Positions 751 to 10,270 of a stretch of 11,788 nt of DNA are shown piece after piece (positions within the stretch are counted from its first letter, which is position 1; every line of letters begins with the position of its first letter). The notes beneath the pieces are model-generated. The model did not search any database, was not told where the DNA came from, and saw only the letters and a program-made list of their open reading frames with translations. A program made the position numbers and the translations under genes. Source of the DNA: an uncultured Planctomycetaceae bacterium (lineage in GTDB: Bacteria; Planctomycetota; Planctomycetia; Pirellulales; Pirellulaceae); contig CAIYOB010000015.1 of assembly GCA_903927685.1 (NCBI GenBank), forward strand, positions 1 through 11,788. Direction: 5' to 3'.

Positions 751-1662
751 TTGAGCAAGATCGCTTTTCTGTTTCCGGGTCAGGGTGCCCAGACCGTGGG
801 GATGGGGGCGGCGCTGGTCGAGCAATTGCCGGCGGCCCGCAGCCTGTTCGCGCGCGCGGCCGAGGTACTGGGTTACGACTTGGCGGAGGTCTGCTTTCGC
901 GGGCCCGACGACGTGCTGGATTCGACCGAATACAGTCAGCCGGCATTGTTTGTCACCAGCTTGGCGGCGCTCGAGTTGTTGCGGCAGGAGTCGCCGCAGA
1001 CCGTCGGTGAGTGTGCGGCGACGGCCGGACTGAGCCTGGGCGAATACACGGCCATCGTGTTTGCCGGGGCGATCGAGTTCGAGGCCGGCTTGAAGCTCGT
1101 TCAGCAACGCGGGCAGGCCATGCAGGAAGCCTCGGATCGTACGCCGAGCGGGATGGTCAGCATTCTGGGCTTGGACCGGGCTCGGGTCGAGAAACTGTGC
1201 GACGAGGTTCGCCAGGACGGGGAGGTTTTGCAGTGCGCCAACTTCCTGTGTCCCGCGAACATCGCCGTCTCGGGGCATAATGCCGCGTGTGAGCGGATTG
1301 CCGAGGCCGCGGCCAAGGCTGGGGCCATGAAAGTTGTCCCGCTGGCAGTGGCCGGGGCCTTCCATACCCCGATCATGGGTTCGGCCGTCGAGCGACTCGC
1401 TGCCGCCCTGGCCGATGTCCCGATGCGCAAGCCCCAGATTCCTGTCATTTCCAACGTGGACGCACGGCCGCACGAGGATCCTGAGGAAATGCGGGAGCTT
1501 CTGATTCGCCAGGTCGTGTCGCCGGTCCAATGGGAAGACTCGATGCGGTACCTGTTGGGCGAAGGCTTTGACTTGTTCTATGAGATCGGTGCGGGGCGCG
1601 TCCTGCGGGGGCTATTGAAGCGAATCGACCGCCGGGCGACCTGCGAGAGCGTAAGCTGCTGA
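751..1662 (+). CDS. fabD: Malonyl-CoA:ACP transacylase FabD
   Basis: This 303-residue protein transfers malonyl from CoA to holo-ACP, supplying the extender unit for type II fatty acid synthesis in the cytosol. The N-terminus IAFLFPGQGAQ is the family signature (Gln11). The nucleophile elbow is GLSLGEY with Ser95, and Arg120 (QQRG), His205 (GAFHT) and Gln254 fill the other catalytic and binding positions. The length is normal. The start is TTG at 751: the conserved first strand begins at residue 4, and the next in-frame ATG, at 799, would remove the PGQG motif. One departure from the E. coli enzyme is Leu94 in place of His in GHSLGE. The gene lies 14 nt after rpmF, and about 110 nt separate it from fabG. 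Confidence 0.95.
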   Translation: MSKIAFLFPGQGAQTVGMGAALVEQLPAARSLFARAAEVLGYDLAEVCFRGPDDVLDSTEYSQPALFVTSLAALELLRQESPQTVGECAATAGLSLGEYTAIVFAGAIEFEAGLKLVQQRGQAMQEASDRTPSGMVSILGLDRARVEKLCDEVRQDGEVLQCANFLCPANIAVSGHNAACERIAEAAAKAGAMKVVPLAVAGAFHTPIMGSAVERLAAALADVPMRKPQIPVISNVDARPHEDPEEMRELLIRQVVSPVQWEDSMRYLLGEGFDLFYEIGAGRVLRGLLKRIDRRATCESVSC

Positions 1663-1776: not shown

Positions 1777-2547
1777 ATGTCGAATCAACCTACGATCGGC
1801 CTCTCGGCGAACCTGACGGGGCAGGTGGCGCTGGTCACTGGCGCATCCCGCGGCCTGGGCAAGGCGATTGCCCTGGAACTGGCTCGAAATGGAGCGCGCG
1901 TGGCTTGCGTGGCTCGCGATACCGACAAACTGGCCGAGACGGTGGCGGCGATCCAGCAGGTAGGCGGTCAGGCCGAAGGCTTCGCCTGCAATGTCAAAGA
2001 ACGGAAATCGGTCGACACACTCGTTGATGGCATTTGCGCACAATGGGGACGACTGGATATTCTCGTCAACAACGCCGGGGTAACGCGGGATACGTTGCTG
2101 CCGCGAATGACGGACGAAGAGTGGGACGAGGTGATCTCGACCAACTTGACGGGGGCGTTTCTGTTCGCTCGGGCGGCCTCGCGGCACATGATGATGGCGA
2201 AATACGGGCGGATCATTAACATTGCCAGCGTCACGGGGATCATTGGCAATCCGGGGCAAACAAACTATTCGGCCACCAAGGCCGGCCTGATCGGGTTTAC
2301 GCGGAGCTTGGCCCGCGAGTTGGCGGGACGGAAAGTCACCATCAATGCGGTCGCGCCGGGGTTCATCGCGAGCGATATGACCAAGCAATTGGGGGCGGTG
2401 ATCCTGGAGGAGGCGAAAAAACGCATCCCGGCCAAGCGAATTGGGACGCCCGAGGACGTGGCGGGTGCAGTGCTGTTCTTGGCGAGTCCCGCGGCGTCCT
2501 ACGTCACGGGGCAGGTGATCGTGGTCGATGGCGGCATGACGGGGTGA
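1777..2547 (+). CDS. fabG: 3-oxoacyl-ACP reductase FabG
   Basis: This is a short-chain dehydrogenase of 256 residues, counted from the ATG at 1777. It would reduce beta-ketoacyl-ACP to 3-hydroxyacyl-ACP with NADPH. The motifs are the Rossmann TGASRGLG at 21-28, NNAG at 98-101, catalytic Asn123, Ser151, Tyr164 and Lys168 (YSATK), and a C-terminal DGGMTG typical of FabG. An alternative ATG at 1768 adds three residues. GAGG at 1763-1766 serves the 1777 start with 10 nt, and GGAGG at 1751-1755 serves 1768 with 12 nt, so the start is uncertain by three codons. A GTG at 1732 is less likely because it would add a non-conserved extension. Its place between fabD and acpP supports FabG over other short-chain dehydrogenases. 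Confidence 0.95.
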
Positions 2548-2710: not shown

Positions 2711-2950
2711 GTGTCTTCAGTTGCAGAACGAGTAATGGACATTGTTGCCGAGCAGCTCGGCGTCGACAAGGAAAAAGTGAAGCCGGAAACGCACTTCATC
2801 AACGACTTGGGCGCCGACTCGCTGGACACCGTCGAGTTGGTGATGGAGTTGGAGGAAGAGTTCGATATCAACATCCCGGACGACGCCGCGGAAAAGATCG
2901 AGACCGTCGGCCAGGCGATCAAGTTCATCGAAGAAGCGCAGTCCTCCTGA
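2711..2950 (+). CDS. acpP: Acyl carrier protein AcpP
   Basis: This acidic 79-residue carrier protein holds growing acyl chains on a 4'-phosphopantetheine arm and shuttles them between the Fab enzymes. The attachment site is Ser37 in [14 protein letters not shown], the canonical position and context. Helix I (residues 2-15) and the acidic recognition helix II (38-50, [13 protein letters not shown]) are intact, and the length is typical. The GTG start follows GGGAGG with 9 nt. fabF begins 19 nt downstream. Ser37 must be modified by a phosphopantetheinyl transferase, which is not in this window, while a possible remover of that arm is encoded after fabF. Identification is secure. Confidence 0.97.
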
Positions 2951-2969
2951 TAGAGTGTGAGCCACCAGC

Positions 2970-4220
2970 ATGAAACGACGGGTTGTCGTCACCGGCCTGG
3001 GGGTCGTAACGTCGCTGAGTCAGAAAGTCGACGACTTGTTTGAACGCCTGTGTCGCGGCGAGAGCGGAGTCCATCCGATTCGCCTGTTCGACACGACGGA
3101 CTTCAAAGTCAAGTTCGGCGGCGACGTCTACGACTGGGATACCGGCGATTATATTGACAAGAAAGAGGTCAAGCGAATTGACCGGTTCACCCAATTTGCC
3201 TTGGTGGCCGGAATCGACGCCATACGCGACTCGGGCTTGGATTTTTCCAAGGAAGATCCGTTCCGTTGCGGCGTGGTTTTGGGTTCGGGCATCGGCGGGC
3301 TGAACGAGATCGAAACGCAGATGGCGCGGCTGCTGTACAAGGGCCCGGATCGCGTTTCGGCTCTCACCATCCCCAAGCTGATGCTGAACGCCGCCGGCGG
3401 CAACCTCTCGATTCATTTCGGCATCCGCGGCCCCAATTACACGGTCGCCACGGCCTGTGCCAGCGCGACCAACGCGATTGGAGACGCCTTCAAGTCGATT
3501 CAGTACGACGACGCGGACGTCATGATCACGGGCGGCAGCGAAGCCGCCGTGACTCCGATGGGAGTCAGCGGCTTTCAGAATATGAAGGCCCTCTCGATGC
3601 GCAACGACGCCCCGCCTCAGGCGAGTCGGCCGTTCGATGTTGACCGGGACGGCTTTGTACTGGCCGAAGGTGCCGGTTTGCTGGTGCTGGAAGAACTGGA
3701 ACATGCTCGGGCCCGCGGCGCACGGATCTATGCCGAAGTTCTGGGCTTTGGCGCCAGCGGGGACGGCGGCCACATCACGCAGCCTGACGAGCAGGGCACG
3801 GGGGCCGCTCGAGCGATGACCTGCGCCCTGCGGGACGCGAAGATGGACCCCGCCGACATGGTCTATATCAATGCTCACGGCACCAGTACGCCGTTGGGCG
3901 ACAAGGCGGAAACCTTGGCCATGAAACGCGTGTTTGGCGAGCACGCCAAGCGGCTGAGCATTTCGAGCACCAAGAGCAACCTGGGGCATACGTTGGGAGC
4001 CAGTGGCGGAATTGAATTGCTGGTCACGGTCAAGGCGATCCAGCGCAGCTTGGTGCCACCAACAATCAACTTGCAGACGCCGGATCCCGACTGCGACTTG
4101 GATTACACGCCGAACCAGCCACGCCAACGCGAGATCAAGGTGGCGATGAGCAACAGCTTCGGGTTTGGTGGTCACAACGCCTCGGTGATCGTCGGTCAAC
4201 TGCGGAACGGTGCGGCCTGA
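2970..4220 (+). CDS. fabF: 3-oxoacyl-ACP synthase II FabF
   Basis: This 416-residue condensing enzyme catalyses Claisen condensation of acyl-ACP with malonyl-ACP. It is a thiolase-fold KAS II: catalytic Cys163 (TVATACASA), His303 (NAHGTST), Lys335 (SSTKSN) and His340 (NLGHTLG) are all present. The glycine-rich FGFGGHN near residues 397-403 is the acyl-pocket gate region. The start MKRRVVVTGLGVVTSL is the standard N-terminus. The Cys-His-His triad separates it from FabB-independent KAS III (FabH, Cys-His-Asn). The spacing of 19 nt after acpP and 15 nt before the AcpH-like gene suggests one transcript. The length is normal and no lesion was seen. Confidence 0.96.
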   Translation: MKRRVVVTGLGVVTSLSQKVDDLFERLCRGESGVHPIRLFDTTDFKVKFGGDVYDWDTGDYIDKKEVKRIDRFTQFALVAGIDAIRDSGLDFSKEDPFRCGVVLGSGIGGLNEIETQMARLLYKGPDRVSALTIPKLMLNAAGGNLSIHFGIRGPNYTVATACASATNAIGDAFKSIQYDDADVMITGGSEAAVTPMGVSGFQNMKALSMRNDAPPQASRPFDVDRDGFVLAEGAGLLVLEELEHARARGARIYAEVLGFGASGDGGHITQPDEQGTGAARAMTCALRDAKMDPADMVYINAHGTSTPLGDKAETLAMKRVFGEHAKRLSISSTKSNLGHTLGASGGIELLVTVKAIQRSLVPPTINLQTPDPDCDLDYTPNQPRQREIKVAMSNSFGFGGHNASVIVGQLRNGAA

Positions 4221-4235
4221 GTTGGCCCGCCGCCC

Positions 4236-4889
4236 ATGAATTACTTTGCCCACGCTCTGCCCTACCTCGACCGTCCGTATTTTGTCGCGGGCACGGCAGT
4301 ACCCGACTGGCTGAGCGTGATCGACCGCAAGATGCGGGTCCGATCCACTGCAGCGCAGACACTGGTCGCACACGAGGATCCTCGGATCGCCGAGGTCGCG
4401 GCCGGCATCGTCCAGCACCACCACGATGACCGCTGGTTCCATCAGACGCGCACGTTCGCCGAGTTGAATCTGCAGCTGACGGCAGCCGTTCGCGGGGTTC
4501 TGCCGGACGACGATAGCTTTCGCCCCAGCTTCCTGGGGCATATTCTGGTCGAAATCCTGCTGGATGCGGCGTTGATTGCGAACCACAGGGACCAGCTCGA
4601 TGCCTATCACGAAGCCCTGCGGAGCGTCGATCCGCACCTGGTGGGGACGGCCGTGAATCAGATGGCGACCCGGACCTCGGACATCTGGCCCGTCTTCATT
4701 CCGCATTTTTGCGCCGAGCGGTTCTTGTACGACTACGCTGAGGATGCGAAACTGCTGGGGCGGCTGAACCGCGTCATGCGCCGCGTGCACCTGCCGCCCC
4801 TGCCGGACCAGTTCCAGATGATCCTGCCGGCAGCCCGCCAAGCCGTCGCCCAGCGGCAACAAGAGTTGCTGGGGAAGAGGGACGAGTGA
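4236..4889 (+). CDS. AcpH-like putative acyl carrier protein phosphodiesterase
   Basis: This 217-residue protein has no signal peptide or membrane segment. The N-terminus MNYFAHALPY, then G19 and PD24W, matches E. coli AcpH (MNFLAHLHL, G19, D24) in sequence and position as I recall it. The next block, GI-x2-His61-x3-Asp65-x3-His69, parallels AcpH GI-x-x-His-x3-Asp-x3-Asp. A third, His102-x3-Glu106-x3-Asp110, lies where AcpH has its DxxxDH helix. AcpH is a non-canonical HD-superfamily, metal-dependent enzyme that cleaves phosphopantetheine from holo-ACP. Location 15 nt after fabF and close to acpP supports that role. If not AcpH, it is still likely an HD-like metal hydrolase. The downstream half (residues 120-217) is not recognised. 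The start is the first ATG; no Shine-Dalgarno is evident. Confidence 0.55.
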   Translation: MNYFAHALPYLDRPYFVAGTAVPDWLSVIDRKMRVRSTAAQTLVAHEDPRIAEVAAGIVQHHHDDRWFHQTRTFAELNLQLTAAVRGVLPDDDSFRPSFLGHILVEILLDAALIANHRDQLDAYHEALRSVDPHLVGTAVNQMATRTSDIWPVFIPHFCAERFLYDYAEDAKLLGRLNRVMRRVHLPPLPDQFQMILPAARQAVAQRQQELLGKRDE

Positions 4890-4901
4890 AAAAGGTAGAG
4901 G

Positions 4902-4942
4902 GACAACTGAAAACGACCACTGACAACTGACCACTGACAATT
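4902..4942. repeat. Heptanucleotide tandem repeat array (GACMACT)
   Basis: Consecutive 7-nt units read GACCACT (4915-4921), GACAACT (4922-4928), GACCACT (4929-4935) and GACAATT (4936-4942). One more GACAACT (4902-4908) is separated by the 6-nt degenerate unit GAAAAC. The array fills most of the gap between the AcpH-like gene and the next coding region and ends 3 nt before that gene's ribosome binding site (AAGGAG, 4946-4951). It resembles dispersed heptamer repeats seen in cyanobacteria and planctomycetes. It is GC-poor against its surroundings, and its function is unknown. Confidence 0.7.
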
Positions 4943-4958
4943 CCCAAGGAGACCAACG

Positions 4959-5807
4959 ATGAAGTTCGGCATGAATCTGTTGCTGTGGACGGGCGAATTG
5001 AACGAGGGGCTGCTGCCCGTGCTCGAGTCGCTCAAGAAGATGGGCTACGACGGCGTCGAATTGCCGTTGTTCAACATGGGCTTGGACTACGCGGCCTGGG
5101 GCCGGCGGCTGGACGACCTGGGCTTGGCTCGGACGGCCGTGACCGTTCGCGGTGAAGCCGACAATCCGATCAGTCCCGATCCGGCGGTGCGCGCGTTGGG
5201 CATCGCGAATACGAAACGGGCCATCGATTGCGCCCAAGCGGCGGGTGCCACGGCGCTGGTCGGACCGTTCCATTCCGCGCTGGGGTATTTCACGGGCCAA
5301 GGCGCCACGGCGGACGAATGGAAGTGGGGCGTCGAGAGCATGCGGCCGGTCGCCGAGCATGCGGGCCAGGCCGGCGTGATCTTGGGGCTGGAGACCCTGA
5401 ATCGGTTCGAGTGCTATCTGCTGAACGCGCACGCCGATGCGACACGGTTCGTCCAGGAAGTCAATCATCCCAATTGCCGCGCGATGTACGACACGTTCCA
5501 CGCGCACATCGAGGAGAAGAGCGTCGCGGGGGCGATCCGCGCCGTGGCCCCGGTGTTGTGCCACGTGCACATCTCGGAAAACGACCGCAGTACGCCGGGG
5601 AAAGGCAACGTCCGCTGGGCGGACAACTTTGACACGCTGAAAGAAATCGGCTACGACGGCTGGCTGACGATCGAAGCCTTTGGCATGGCCCTGCCCGAGT
5701 TGGTTGCGGCCACCAAGATCTGGCGGCGGATGTACCAGACCGAAGAACAACTCGCCCGCGAGGGACTGGCGTTCATGAAGGCCCAATACGCCCAGCGCTG
5801 GCAGTAA
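4959..5807 (+). CDS. Ketose 3-epimerase-like sugar isomerase (xylose isomerase-like TIM barrel)
   Basis: This 282-residue protein belongs to the AP2Ec/xylose-isomerase-like TIM barrels and is closest in motif to D-tagatose/D-psicose 3-epimerases. The four metal ligands are in order: Glu145 (LETLNRFE), Asp178 (MYDTFH), His204 (HVHISE) and Glu239 (TIEAF). Substrate-contact candidates are Glu151, His181 and Arg210 (ENDRSTPGKG). Such enzymes use Mn or Co to epimerise C3 of free ketoses. No export signal is present, so it should be cytosolic. AAGGAG stands 7 nt before the ATG. It lies 81 nt before the Gfo/Idh/MocA gene, a frequent pairing in sugar catabolism. The exact sugar is unknown, and a hydroxypyruvate-isomerase-like or inosose-type role is an alternative. 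Confidence 0.85.
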   Translation: MKFGMNLLLWTGELNEGLLPVLESLKKMGYDGVELPLFNMGLDYAAWGRRLDDLGLARTAVTVRGEADNPISPDPAVRALGIANTKRAIDCAQAAGATALVGPFHSALGYFTGQGATADEWKWGVESMRPVAEHAGQAGVILGLETLNRFECYLLNAHADATRFVQEVNHPNCRAMYDTFHAHIEEKSVAGAIRAVAPVLCHVHISENDRSTPGKGNVRWADNFDTLKEIGYDGWLTIEAFGMALPELVAATKIWRRMYQTEEQLAREGLAFMKAQYAQRWQ

Positions 5808-5888
5808 CTGGACTTTCGCGGCGCGGTCTGGTGTAATGACGGCGATATCTCTGCGCCTACCGTTACCCACAGGTTCAAGGAGTCGCCC

Positions 5889-7364
5889 ATGCTTCGCCAG
5901 ACACGTCGCCAGTTCCTGCAACACGCCGCTGCCGGAGGGCTCGCGGCCACTTTCGCCATTGCCGGCACCAAGGCTTCGGGAAAAATCATCGGAGCCAACG
6001 ACCGGATTCGCTTGGGAGTGGCCGGGATCAACGGCCGGGGCGTCAGCCACCTGGATGCCTTTGCGGCCATGAAGGACGTCGAGATCATCTACCTGATCGA
6101 TCCCGACAAGCGTATTCACGGGAGCCGCGGCCAGCGGGTGCAAGACAAGGCGGGCAATACGCCCCAGTGCGTGCAGGACATCCGCCAGGCGCTGGAGGAT
6201 AAGAACCTGGACGCCGTCTCCGTGGCCACCTGCAATCACTGGCACGCCTTGATCACTTTCTGGGCGTGCCAGGCCGGCAAGGACGTGTACGTCGAAAAGC
6301 CTTGCAGCCACAACGTGTTCGAAGGCCGGCAGTGCGTCAAGATTGCGCGCCAGAAAGGGTGCATTGTCCAGCACGGCACGCAGAGCCGCGGCGAAGGCCA
6401 GTGGATCCGAACCGTGGCGGCGATCGCCAGCGGCAAGTACGGCCAGCTGCTGGTCGCCAAAGCGTATGCCTCCAAGCCGCGCTGGAGCATCGGTTTCAAG
6501 GAGACCAAGGAGCCGCCCAAGGAACTGGACTTCAACCTCTGGCTGGGCCCGGCTCCGCAGCAGCCATACCACGAGAACATCGTGCATTATAACTGGCACT
6601 GGTTCTGGGATTTTGGCAACGGCGAGATCGGCAACCAAGGCGTTCATCAGATGGACATCGCCCGCTGGGGCATCCCGGGCGCGACACTGCCCACCAGCGT
6701 GATCAGCATGGGCGGGCGGTGGGTGGAGTCCACGGCGGACAAGCCTCCGTACACCGACCAGGGACAGACGCCGAACATGCAGATCACCGTGTTCGATTAT
6801 GGCCAGACATTGCTGGTGTACGAGGTGTTGGGCCTGTGCGGCCGGAGTGCCGTCGGCGGAACGCCTTTCCCGGCCAAGGTGGACAACGAGTTCTATCTGG
6901 AGGCAGGCCATATCAGCGGCGGCAAGTTCTACCCCAAGGGCTCGGACCAGGGCGAGACGCTGCCGGATGTCGAAACGAACAAGGCCGCTGGGGACGTGTT
7001 CCGCAACTTCATCAATTGCATGCGGAGCCGAAACCATGAACAGTTGCACGCGGACATCCTGGACGCGCATTACTCGGCCGCCCTGTGCCACCTGGGCAAT
7101 ATTGCTTACCGGCTGGGCAAGCAGGTGCCGGGCAACAGCGCCGCGGCCGGTTTTCCCAGCAATCCGCACGTCCAGGAATCGCTCGAGAAACTGCGTGCCA
7201 ACCTCAAGCAGGCGGTCGGCCTGGACCTGGACACGGCCAACTACCAGCTGGGCGCGAAGCTGGACTTCGATCCGGCGACCGAGCGGTTTGTCGGCAACGA
7301 GGCAGCCAACGCGCTGTTGACGCGTCCGTACCGCGAGCCGTTTGTGGTCACCGAGGTCGCCTGA
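5889..7364 (+). CDS. Tat-exported Gfo/Idh/MocA-family oxidoreductase
   Basis: This NAD(P)-dependent sugar or inositol dehydrogenase-like protein has 491 residues, longer than the usual 330-450. Its N-terminus has a twin-arginine signal, TRRQFLQ at 5-11, followed by a mildly hydrophobic AAAGGLAATFAIAG (13-26), so export in folded form is likely. The Rossmann motif is GVAGINGRG (43-51), the family's EKP motif is Glu136-Lys137-Pro138, and GNQGVHQMDIARW (248-260) carries the conserved His253/Asp256 pair. Exported members such as Zymomonas GFOR keep their nucleotide tightly bound. AAGGAG precedes the ATG by 6 nt. It follows the epimerase gene and converges on clpX. The substrate is unknown. It resembles the large planctomycete family of signal-bearing Gfo/Idh proteins. 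Confidence 0.9.
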   Translation: MLRQTRRQFLQHAAAGGLAATFAIAGTKASGKIIGANDRIRLGVAGINGRGVSHLDAFAAMKDVEIIYLIDPDKRIHGSRGQRVQDKAGNTPQCVQDIRQALEDKNLDAVSVATCNHWHALITFWACQAGKDVYVEKPCSHNVFEGRQCVKIARQKGCIVQHGTQSRGEGQWIRTVAAIASGKYGQLLVAKAYASKPRWSIGFKETKEPPKELDFNLWLGPAPQQPYHENIVHYNWHWFWDFGNGEIGNQGVHQMDIARWGIPGATLPTSVISMGGRWVESTADKPPYTDQGQTPNMQITVFDYGQTLLVYEVLGLCGRSAVGGTPFPAKVDNEFYLEAGHISGGKFYPKGSDQGETLPDVETNKAAGDVFRNFINCMRSRNHEQLHADILDAHYSAALCHLGNIAYRLGKQVPGNSAAAGFPSNPHVQESLEKLRANLKQAVGLDLDTANYQLGAKLDFDPATERFVGNEAANALLTRPYREPFVVTEVA

Positions 7365-7392
7365 AACGGCAGGCAGCGGGACGGATGCCAAG

Positions 7393-7425
7393 AAAAAAAG
7401 AGCGGCAGCCTTGCGGCTGCCGCTC
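7393..7425 (-). terminator. Intrinsic terminator of clpX
   Basis: A perfect 11-bp stem, GAGCGGCAGCC (7400-7410) with GGCTGCCGCTC (7415-7425), encloses a 4-nt loop. On the minus strand it is followed directly by seven Ts (the A-run at 7393-7399). It starts 30 nt past the clpX stop. On the plus strand no T-run follows, so it would not efficiently end transcripts from the convergent oxidoreductase gene by the same mechanism. Confidence 0.88.
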
Positions 7426-7455
7426 ACGTGCACCGACGACTCGTCTCACTCGACG

Positions 7456-9512: not shown

Positions 9513-9601
9513 AACGCTTTCGCGTCCCACACTTCCGCTCCCTCATGGGTCGCCTGACCATGTTACGTAGCGGTCCGGCGGCCAGTTCACGGATTCTTGC
9601 C

Positions 9602-10270
9602 ATGAAAGAAAAACAACTCGCCCGCGTCCTGGACACCGGCATTGTCGCGGTCATTCGCGCCAGCAATGGCGATCTCCTGGCCGATGTGGCAGAAGCCCTG
9701 CTCGCGGGCGGTGTGGACGTGATGGAGATTACGTTTACGGTCCCGGCGGCGGTGCGCGTGCTGGAGCGAGTGGCGGACCGGCTGGGGTCGCGAGTGCTGC
9801 TGGGCGCCGGCACGGTTCTGGATCCGGAGACCGCCCGCGCGGCCATCCTGGCGGGCGCCGAGTTCATCGTGGCGCCCAATACGAATCCGGAAGTGATCCG
9901 CCTCTGCCGCCGCTACAGCAAGTTGATCATGCCCGGCGCGATGACTCCCACCGAGGTGGTTGCGGCCTGGGAGGCGGGGGCGGATATCGTGAAGATCTTT
10001 CCCTCGGAGATCACGGGCCCCAAGTACCTGAAAGCCCTGCACGGCCCGCTCCCGCACATCCTGTTGATGCCTACGGGCGGGGTCGACCTGAATACGGCGG
10101 CCGAGTTTCTGCGGTGCGGCGCGTGCGCCCTGGGAATCGGCGGCTCGCTCGTGGAAAAGAAGGCCGTGGAGACTGGTAATCTGGAGCGGATCGAGTCCCA
10201 GGCTCGCCAATTCGTCCAGATCGTCCGGGAGACAAGGCAGGCCATGGCCGGTACAGCACGGTCGGGCTAG
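9602..10270 (+). CDS. eda: KDPG/KHG aldolase (bifunctional 2-keto-3-deoxy aldolase family)
   Basis: This 222-residue class I aldolase cleaves 2-keto-3-deoxy-6-phosphogluconate to pyruvate and glyceraldehyde-3-phosphate, and many members also act on 4-hydroxy-2-oxoglutarate. Residues seen are Arg19 (AVIRA), catalytic Glu42 (VMEITF), Thr71 in GAGTV, Schiff-base Lys131 (VKIFPSE), and the phosphate-binding PTGG (157-160) and GIGGSLV (178-184). ATG 9602 gives the standard length; upstream ATGs would add 14 or 19 odd residues. No Shine-Dalgarno is visible. No edd or kdgK lies in the window, so the pathway (Entner-Doudoroff, uronate or keto-sugar breakdown) cannot be fixed. KDPGal-type substrate preference is a possible alternative. 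Confidence 0.9.
   Translation: MKEKQLARVLDTGIVAVIRASNGDLLADVAEALLAGGVDVMEITFTVPAAVRVLERVADRLGSRVLLGAGTVLDPETARAAILAGAEFIVAPNTNPEVIRLCRRYSKLIMPGAMTPTEVVAAWEAGADIVKIFPSEITGPKYLKALHGPLPHILLMPTGGVDLNTAAEFLRCGACALGIGGSLVEKKAVETGNLERIESQARQFVQIVRETRQAMAGTARSG

Follow-up and report, generated by a model that had tools for sequence, protein, structure and literature searches.

The window (the whole 11,788-nt stretch of DNA that was analysed) raises the question of whether the open reading frame (ORF) directly downstream of acpP and fabF encodes an AcpH-type acyl carrier protein phosphodiesterase. A sequence-only reading had proposed this and had taken the gene order as a tie between carrier turnover and fatty acid synthesis. 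The features of the window are collected in Table 1.

Table 1. Features of the window, with coordinates, strand and basis of assignment.
Feature	Coordinates	Strand	Basis or remark
ribosomal protein L32 gene		+	first in the listed run, then fabD-like, fabG-like, acpP, fabF
fabD-like acyltransferase	751..1662	+	Acyl_transf_1
fabG-like SDR	1777..2547	+	adh_short_C2; start at 1777 chosen by the analyst, ORF as listed starts at 1732
acpP acyl carrier protein	2711..2950	+	NF002151, E 1.4e-36
fabF	2970..4220	+	TIGR03150, E 3.5e-182
acyl-carrier-adjacent ORF, AcpH (ACP_PD)-superfamily protein, 217 aa	4236..4889	+	ATG-to-stop ORF, homologues
TIM-barrel sugar isomerase/epimerase	4959..5807	+	PF01261, E 1.9e-43
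GFO/IDH/MocA oxidoreductase	5889-7364	+	
clpX		-	after the GFO/IDH/MocA oxidoreductase gene

The ORF was recovered with the position, strand, length and N-terminus (MNYFAH) that had been given for it, and the distance of 15 nt from fabF held as well (fabF stop codon, 4218-4220). A search with its product returned 2806 homologues at E<=1e-3 from 4072 candidates; among the best 120 of these, all that carry an organism in the source name are planctomycetes. Because of these homologues and the near-invariant residues described below, the ORF is a real gene, not a chance frame, with a product from a large protein family. The acpP and fabF genes of the window are also real. For the TIM-barrel product, the best NCBIfam model was D-psicose 3-epimerase, at 159.6 bits against a cut-off of 300.

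Two further elements overlap or adjoin the gene. An antisense ORF of 1502 aa (window 2925-7433, minus strand) spans fabF, the AcpH-like and TIM-barrel genes and that of the oxidoreductase; most likely it results from G+C-rich codon use, given that the plus-strand genes have homologues or family matches. A short repeat-like run lies between the AcpH-like and TIM-barrel genes (window 4917-4940); with up to 3 mismatches allowed, the window holds a single copy, and a 13-base core was absent from all 168 loci searched.

Homology to AcpH through an intermediate group

Scanned alone, the window protein matched no Pfam family at E<=10 and, in NCBIfam, nothing past one chance row (E 0.12). BLASTP against E. 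coli AcpH (b0404, NP_414938.1, PF04336) gave no meaningful direct match. The protein was aligned with 40 relatives (alignment A1), and the 41 members were scanned singly against Pfam at E<=10. ACP_PD (PF04336) was matched by 18 of the 41 (best E 1.7e-5, under the Pfam cut-off) and was the sole family to recur, five others appearing once each. The best row, P0118, reached 25.4 bits against the gathering cut-off of 27, aligning residues 1-184 with profile positions 1-152; six relatives from the window's group scanned singly against ACP_PD gave this score, E values of 0.04 and 0.06, and three blanks. No planctomycete row scanned singly passed the cut-off, and a precomputed PF04336 label is carried by one (P0118) of the best 120 of the 2806 homologues. 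In 14 control genomes the ACP_PD model found matches in 5, four below the cut-off and 1 above it. The expected profile match to PF04336 was thus not obtained for the window protein. A better match to an unrelated family, which had been named as contrary evidence, did not come out of the scans of the window protein and the 41 members. Pfam HD-domain models were likewise matched by none of the 41 at E<=10, which says nothing against HD kinship because AcpH itself, at E<=1, matches ACP_PD alone in Pfam.

The connection runs through a deltaproteobacterial protein, P0123, which has 36% identity to residues 1-113 of the window protein and exceeds the ACP_PD cut-off (27.5 and 31 bits in two scans). 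Three Myxococcota/deltaproteobacterial proteins score 28.7-31 bits with this model, a PF04336 label stands on 41 among 120 listed members of the P0123 family, and some listed members are named 'acyl carrier protein phosphodiesterase' by JGI. In HH comparisons, the window's group (A1) matched the P0123 group (A3, Myxococcota/deltaproteobacterial) at 99.3%, E 1.7e-20. A3 in turn matched 22 enterobacterial AcpH rows at 95.3%, E 2.4e-8, and a set of 30 AcpH rows that takes in divergent Vibrio, Aeromonas, Halomonas and Alteromonadales sequences at 97.0%, E 9.4e-11 (191 columns, score 76.7; best of 50 shuffles, 18.7). Compared directly, A1 showed no significant match to the 22 enterobacterial rows and a weak one to the 30 rows (16%, E 0.0016, score 30.2; best of 50 shuffles, 21.9). 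As both steps through A3 are strong and the direct step is weak, homology of the window protein to AcpH/ACP_PD is supported by sequence comparison via intermediates only. The window protein itself stays below the 27-bit gathering cut-off, and common ancestry with the ACP_PD superfamily is detectable through the relatives' matches and the two HH steps. Of the proposed AcpH-like identity, distant homology therefore stands on the relatives' mostly weak Pfam matches, the bridging group and the shuffle-controlled HH scores, and direct resemblance does not. Among the papers searched, none joined acyl carrier protein phosphodiesterase with planctomycetes, or PF04336/DUF479 with Pirellul-.

Conserved residues and predicted structure

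Residues were compared across 121 proteins of the window's group (P0001-P0121), 120 Myxococcota/deltaproteobacterial proteins (P0123-P0242) and 121 AcpH proteins (P0122, P0243-P0362), the group labels resting on those members whose records carry organism names. All the motif residues ascribed to the window protein were found in it: G19, D24, the block G57-I58-x2-H61-x3-D65 and the helix H102-x3-E106-x3-D110. Across the window protein and its best 120 matches, each of H6, D24, H61, D65, H69, H102, E106 and D110 is conserved in at least 120 of the 121 sequences, the exceptions being one gap at H6, one gap at D24, one L at H61 and one D at E106. Conservation of H6, D24, H61 and D65 among orthologues, on which the original proposal had been staked, is accordingly borne out. 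H69, missing from its list of residues, is invariant, as is H102, in the 121 window-group and 120 Myxococcota/deltaproteobacterial proteins.

E. coli AcpH (193 aa, against 217 aa in the window protein) also has MN-x3-H6, G19, D24 and a GI-x2-H-x3-D block, and its D82 and R153 correspond to D110 and R183 of the window protein. The positions shared in this alignment are N2, H6, G19, D24, G57/G41, H61/H45, D65/D49, D110/D82 and R183/R153. All five of the conserved AcpH residues H6, D24, H45, D49 and D82 are thus present, as H6, D24, H61, D65 and D110, whereas D53, P74 and D78 of AcpH are replaced by H69, H102 and E106. In the AcpH group these positions hold D53 in 121/121, P74 in 119/121 and D78 in 120/121 proteins, and 10 diverse AcpH proteins, with identity down to 31%, all have D53 and D78; the window protein therefore lacks two residues kept by AcpH proper. 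The motifs had been said to follow E. coli AcpH in order and spacing. Two blocks do so; the third was given partly wrongly, because in AcpH it reads P74-x3-D78-x3-D82. The Myxococcota/deltaproteobacterial proteins (P0123 and relatives) are 21-29% identical to the window protein and hold all eight site residues, H69 and H102 included. A branch with 100/100 support separates the AcpH rows in a tree of 71 rows, and the clade of the window protein sits among the Myxococcota/deltaproteobacterial rows (midpoint root, long branches).

The model of the window protein (mean pLDDT 95.6, pTM 0.91) is all-helical, without strands. H61, D65 and H69 fall on one helix at i, i+4 and i+8, a second helix carries H102, E106 and D110 at the same intervals, and H6 and D24 fall on the first two helices. 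This placement fits facing helices around a putative metal site, for which the eight conserved residues are the predicted ligands. Fold comparison did not bring out an HD-like core: Foldseek searches of the model gave nothing significant against PDB, where the best match had E 1.1 and an HD protein came fifth with E 1.5, or against BFVD, and VIA-align gave Z of at most 3.3. For some orthologues (G331:C337, G334:C83, G335:C102, G336:C51, L014, L016, L022, L104 and L110) the match is split in two or spans a longer region, which suggests an insertion in these proteins.

Gene neighbourhood and candidate function

The neighbourhood of the gene was surveyed in three overlapping samples of 30 loci each. 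A TIM-barrel gene lies downstream on the same strand in 23/30 loci from genome contigs (29 window-family loci and one deltaproteobacterial; L019 ends 231 bases past the gene), in 17/30 loci of a phylum-wide draw (gene matched in 35/294 genomes) and in 19/30 loci of one family. Neither acpP nor fabF was found in any of the 60 loci of the contig and phylum-wide samples (flanks up to 8 kb and up to 1.5 kb, respectively), or in the 30 loci of the one-family sample; the upstream genes vary from one orthologue to another. Among 119 genomes of one family, the AcpH-like gene is present in 42, the TIM-barrel gene in 63 (E<=1e-60) and both in 36 (Fisher p 1e-7, with kinship uncorrected). The two genes start <=3 kb apart on one strand in 29 of the 42; of the other 13, 6 have no TIM-barrel gene at the threshold used, and in 7 it lies at another place. 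In G328, which belongs to the 7, a contig ends 231 bases from the AcpH-like gene.

The converse survey started from fabF, which is present in 112/119 of these genomes, against 42/119 for the AcpH-like gene (completeness unstated). It was found (E<=1e-120) in 40 of the 42 genomes with the AcpH-like gene, on the same contig in two, at distances of 63 kb and 1.3 Mb. The AcpH-like gene follows fabF in 0/30 fabF loci, of which 26 belong to genomes with the gene, and acpP lies upstream of fabF in 29/30 (flanks <=1.5 kb, and <0.6 kb in L118, L125, L129 and L141). Because the linkage was seen in none of these relative or fabF loci, adjacency to acpP-fabF is so far confined to the window among the loci examined, which otherwise come from more distant relatives. 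It is probably a local arrangement of the AcpH-like/TIM-barrel gene pair. The proposed tie of carrier turnover to fatty acid synthesis by gene order thus finds no counterpart in any examined relative, and the recurrent partner turned up by the survey is a TIM-barrel sugar epimerase. The earlier proposal is partly supported: its homology guess was good, and its gene-order account fails in the relatives examined. Since PF01261 is a broad family, the pairing names no substrate. Within 3.6 kb or less of the gene at 19 Myxococcota/deltaproteobacterial loci (18 genomes), there was no TIM-barrel, acpP or fabF match; one locus has a 32% SDR match.

With moderate confidence, the window protein is taken to be a metal-dependent phosphodiesterase or phosphohydrolase of a distinct planctomycete/Myxococcota subfamily of the AcpH superfamily, for which a candidate substrate only can be offered. 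The helices carrying H6, D24, H61-x3-D65-x3-H69 and H102-x3-E106-x3-D110 would bind one or two divalent metal ions, and these would activate a water that attacks a phosphoester, as proposed for AcpH. The substrate may be a small phosphoester from the pathway of the TIM-barrel epimerase. Such a compound is more likely than holo-ACP because relatives usually pair the gene with the epimerase and it was not found with acyl carrier genes, and the two extra invariant histidines together with this usual neighbour suggest that the target may differ from acyl carrier protein.

The opposite reading, that the protein is a true AcpH-type holo-ACP phosphodiesterase removing 4'-phosphopantetheine from AcpP, with the acpP-fabF adjacency as a direct sign of it, deserves serious weight and is nevertheless doubtful. 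It accords with the homology, with the five identical candidate site residues and with the gene order of the window; in addition, PMC8557913 reports AcpH homologues to act on varied carrier proteins in vitro. Against it stand the lack of acpP and fabF from the 60 relative loci and of the gene from the 30 fabF loci, the narrower distribution of the gene than that of fabF, and the replacement of AcpH D53 and P74 by H69 and H102. Holo-ACP is thus a possible substrate, one that gene context does not support. The same paper describes the cellular role of AcpH as unclear, and PptH of Mycobacterium tuberculosis as removing phosphopantetheine from carrier proteins, an activity like that of AcpH-type enzymes, while being non-homologous to AcpH. 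As described there, PptH has a metallophosphoesterase sandwich fold with beta strands, unlike the strandless model of the window protein.

It is improbable that hydrolase activity was lost or never present and that the protein is a helical partner which binds or regulates the TIM-barrel enzyme. Recurrent pairing with that gene and the incompletely kept AcpH residue set would agree with such a role; near-invariance of eight acidic or histidine positions in both groups would be unusual without catalysis. Zinc-dependent phospholipase C and S1/P1-type nucleases use H-x3-D and H-x3-E ligand pairs, and the spacing of H61-x3-D65 and H102-x3-E106 resembles these. Membership of such another helical metalloenzyme class is very improbable all the same, as homology points to AcpH and no phospholipase C or nuclease family was matched by the 41 A1 members at E<=10.

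The preferred reading, a phosphohydrolase of a distinct subfamily, can be extended tentatively. On this proposal, which we rate short of an even chance, the planctomycete/Myxococcota family would be a separate enzyme class within the AcpH superfamily, H69 and H102 would give a richer, perhaps dinuclear, metal site, the planctomycete enzyme would act together with the TIM-barrel epimerase encoded next to it, on a sugar phosphodiester or a sugar phosphate, and the 'ACP phosphodiesterase' labels on this branch would be wrong. Annotations of that kind on the branch rest on distant homology, which is a warning for their use. A sister subfamily with another set of invariant residues offers a natural comparison for the residues that make a carrier-protein hydrolase, and the pairing with a sugar epimerase gene gives a tangible starting point for finding the substrate of an AcpH-like protein.

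Some minor observations concern the surroundings of the gene and of its orthologues. A KDPG/KHG aldolase gene (window 9545-10270, plus strand; PF01081, E 1.9e-42) lies near the epimerase and oxidoreductase genes, so that the DNA past the fab genes looks like sugar-acid metabolism. Four loci (L001, L010, L011 and L023) are titled Candidatus Nealsonbacteria or Candidatus Kuenenia stuttgartiensis, yet their contigs carry the gene pair; the titles seem to be in error or overly wide. Genome size is 9.1 Mb for L001 and 7.4 Mb for L010. In the window, clpX lies 2.6 kb downstream of the AcpH-like gene on the opposite strand, and in L005, L008, L010 and L011 it lies 4-6 kb downstream of the orthologue, possibly reflecting an old shared neighbourhood or a single lineage.
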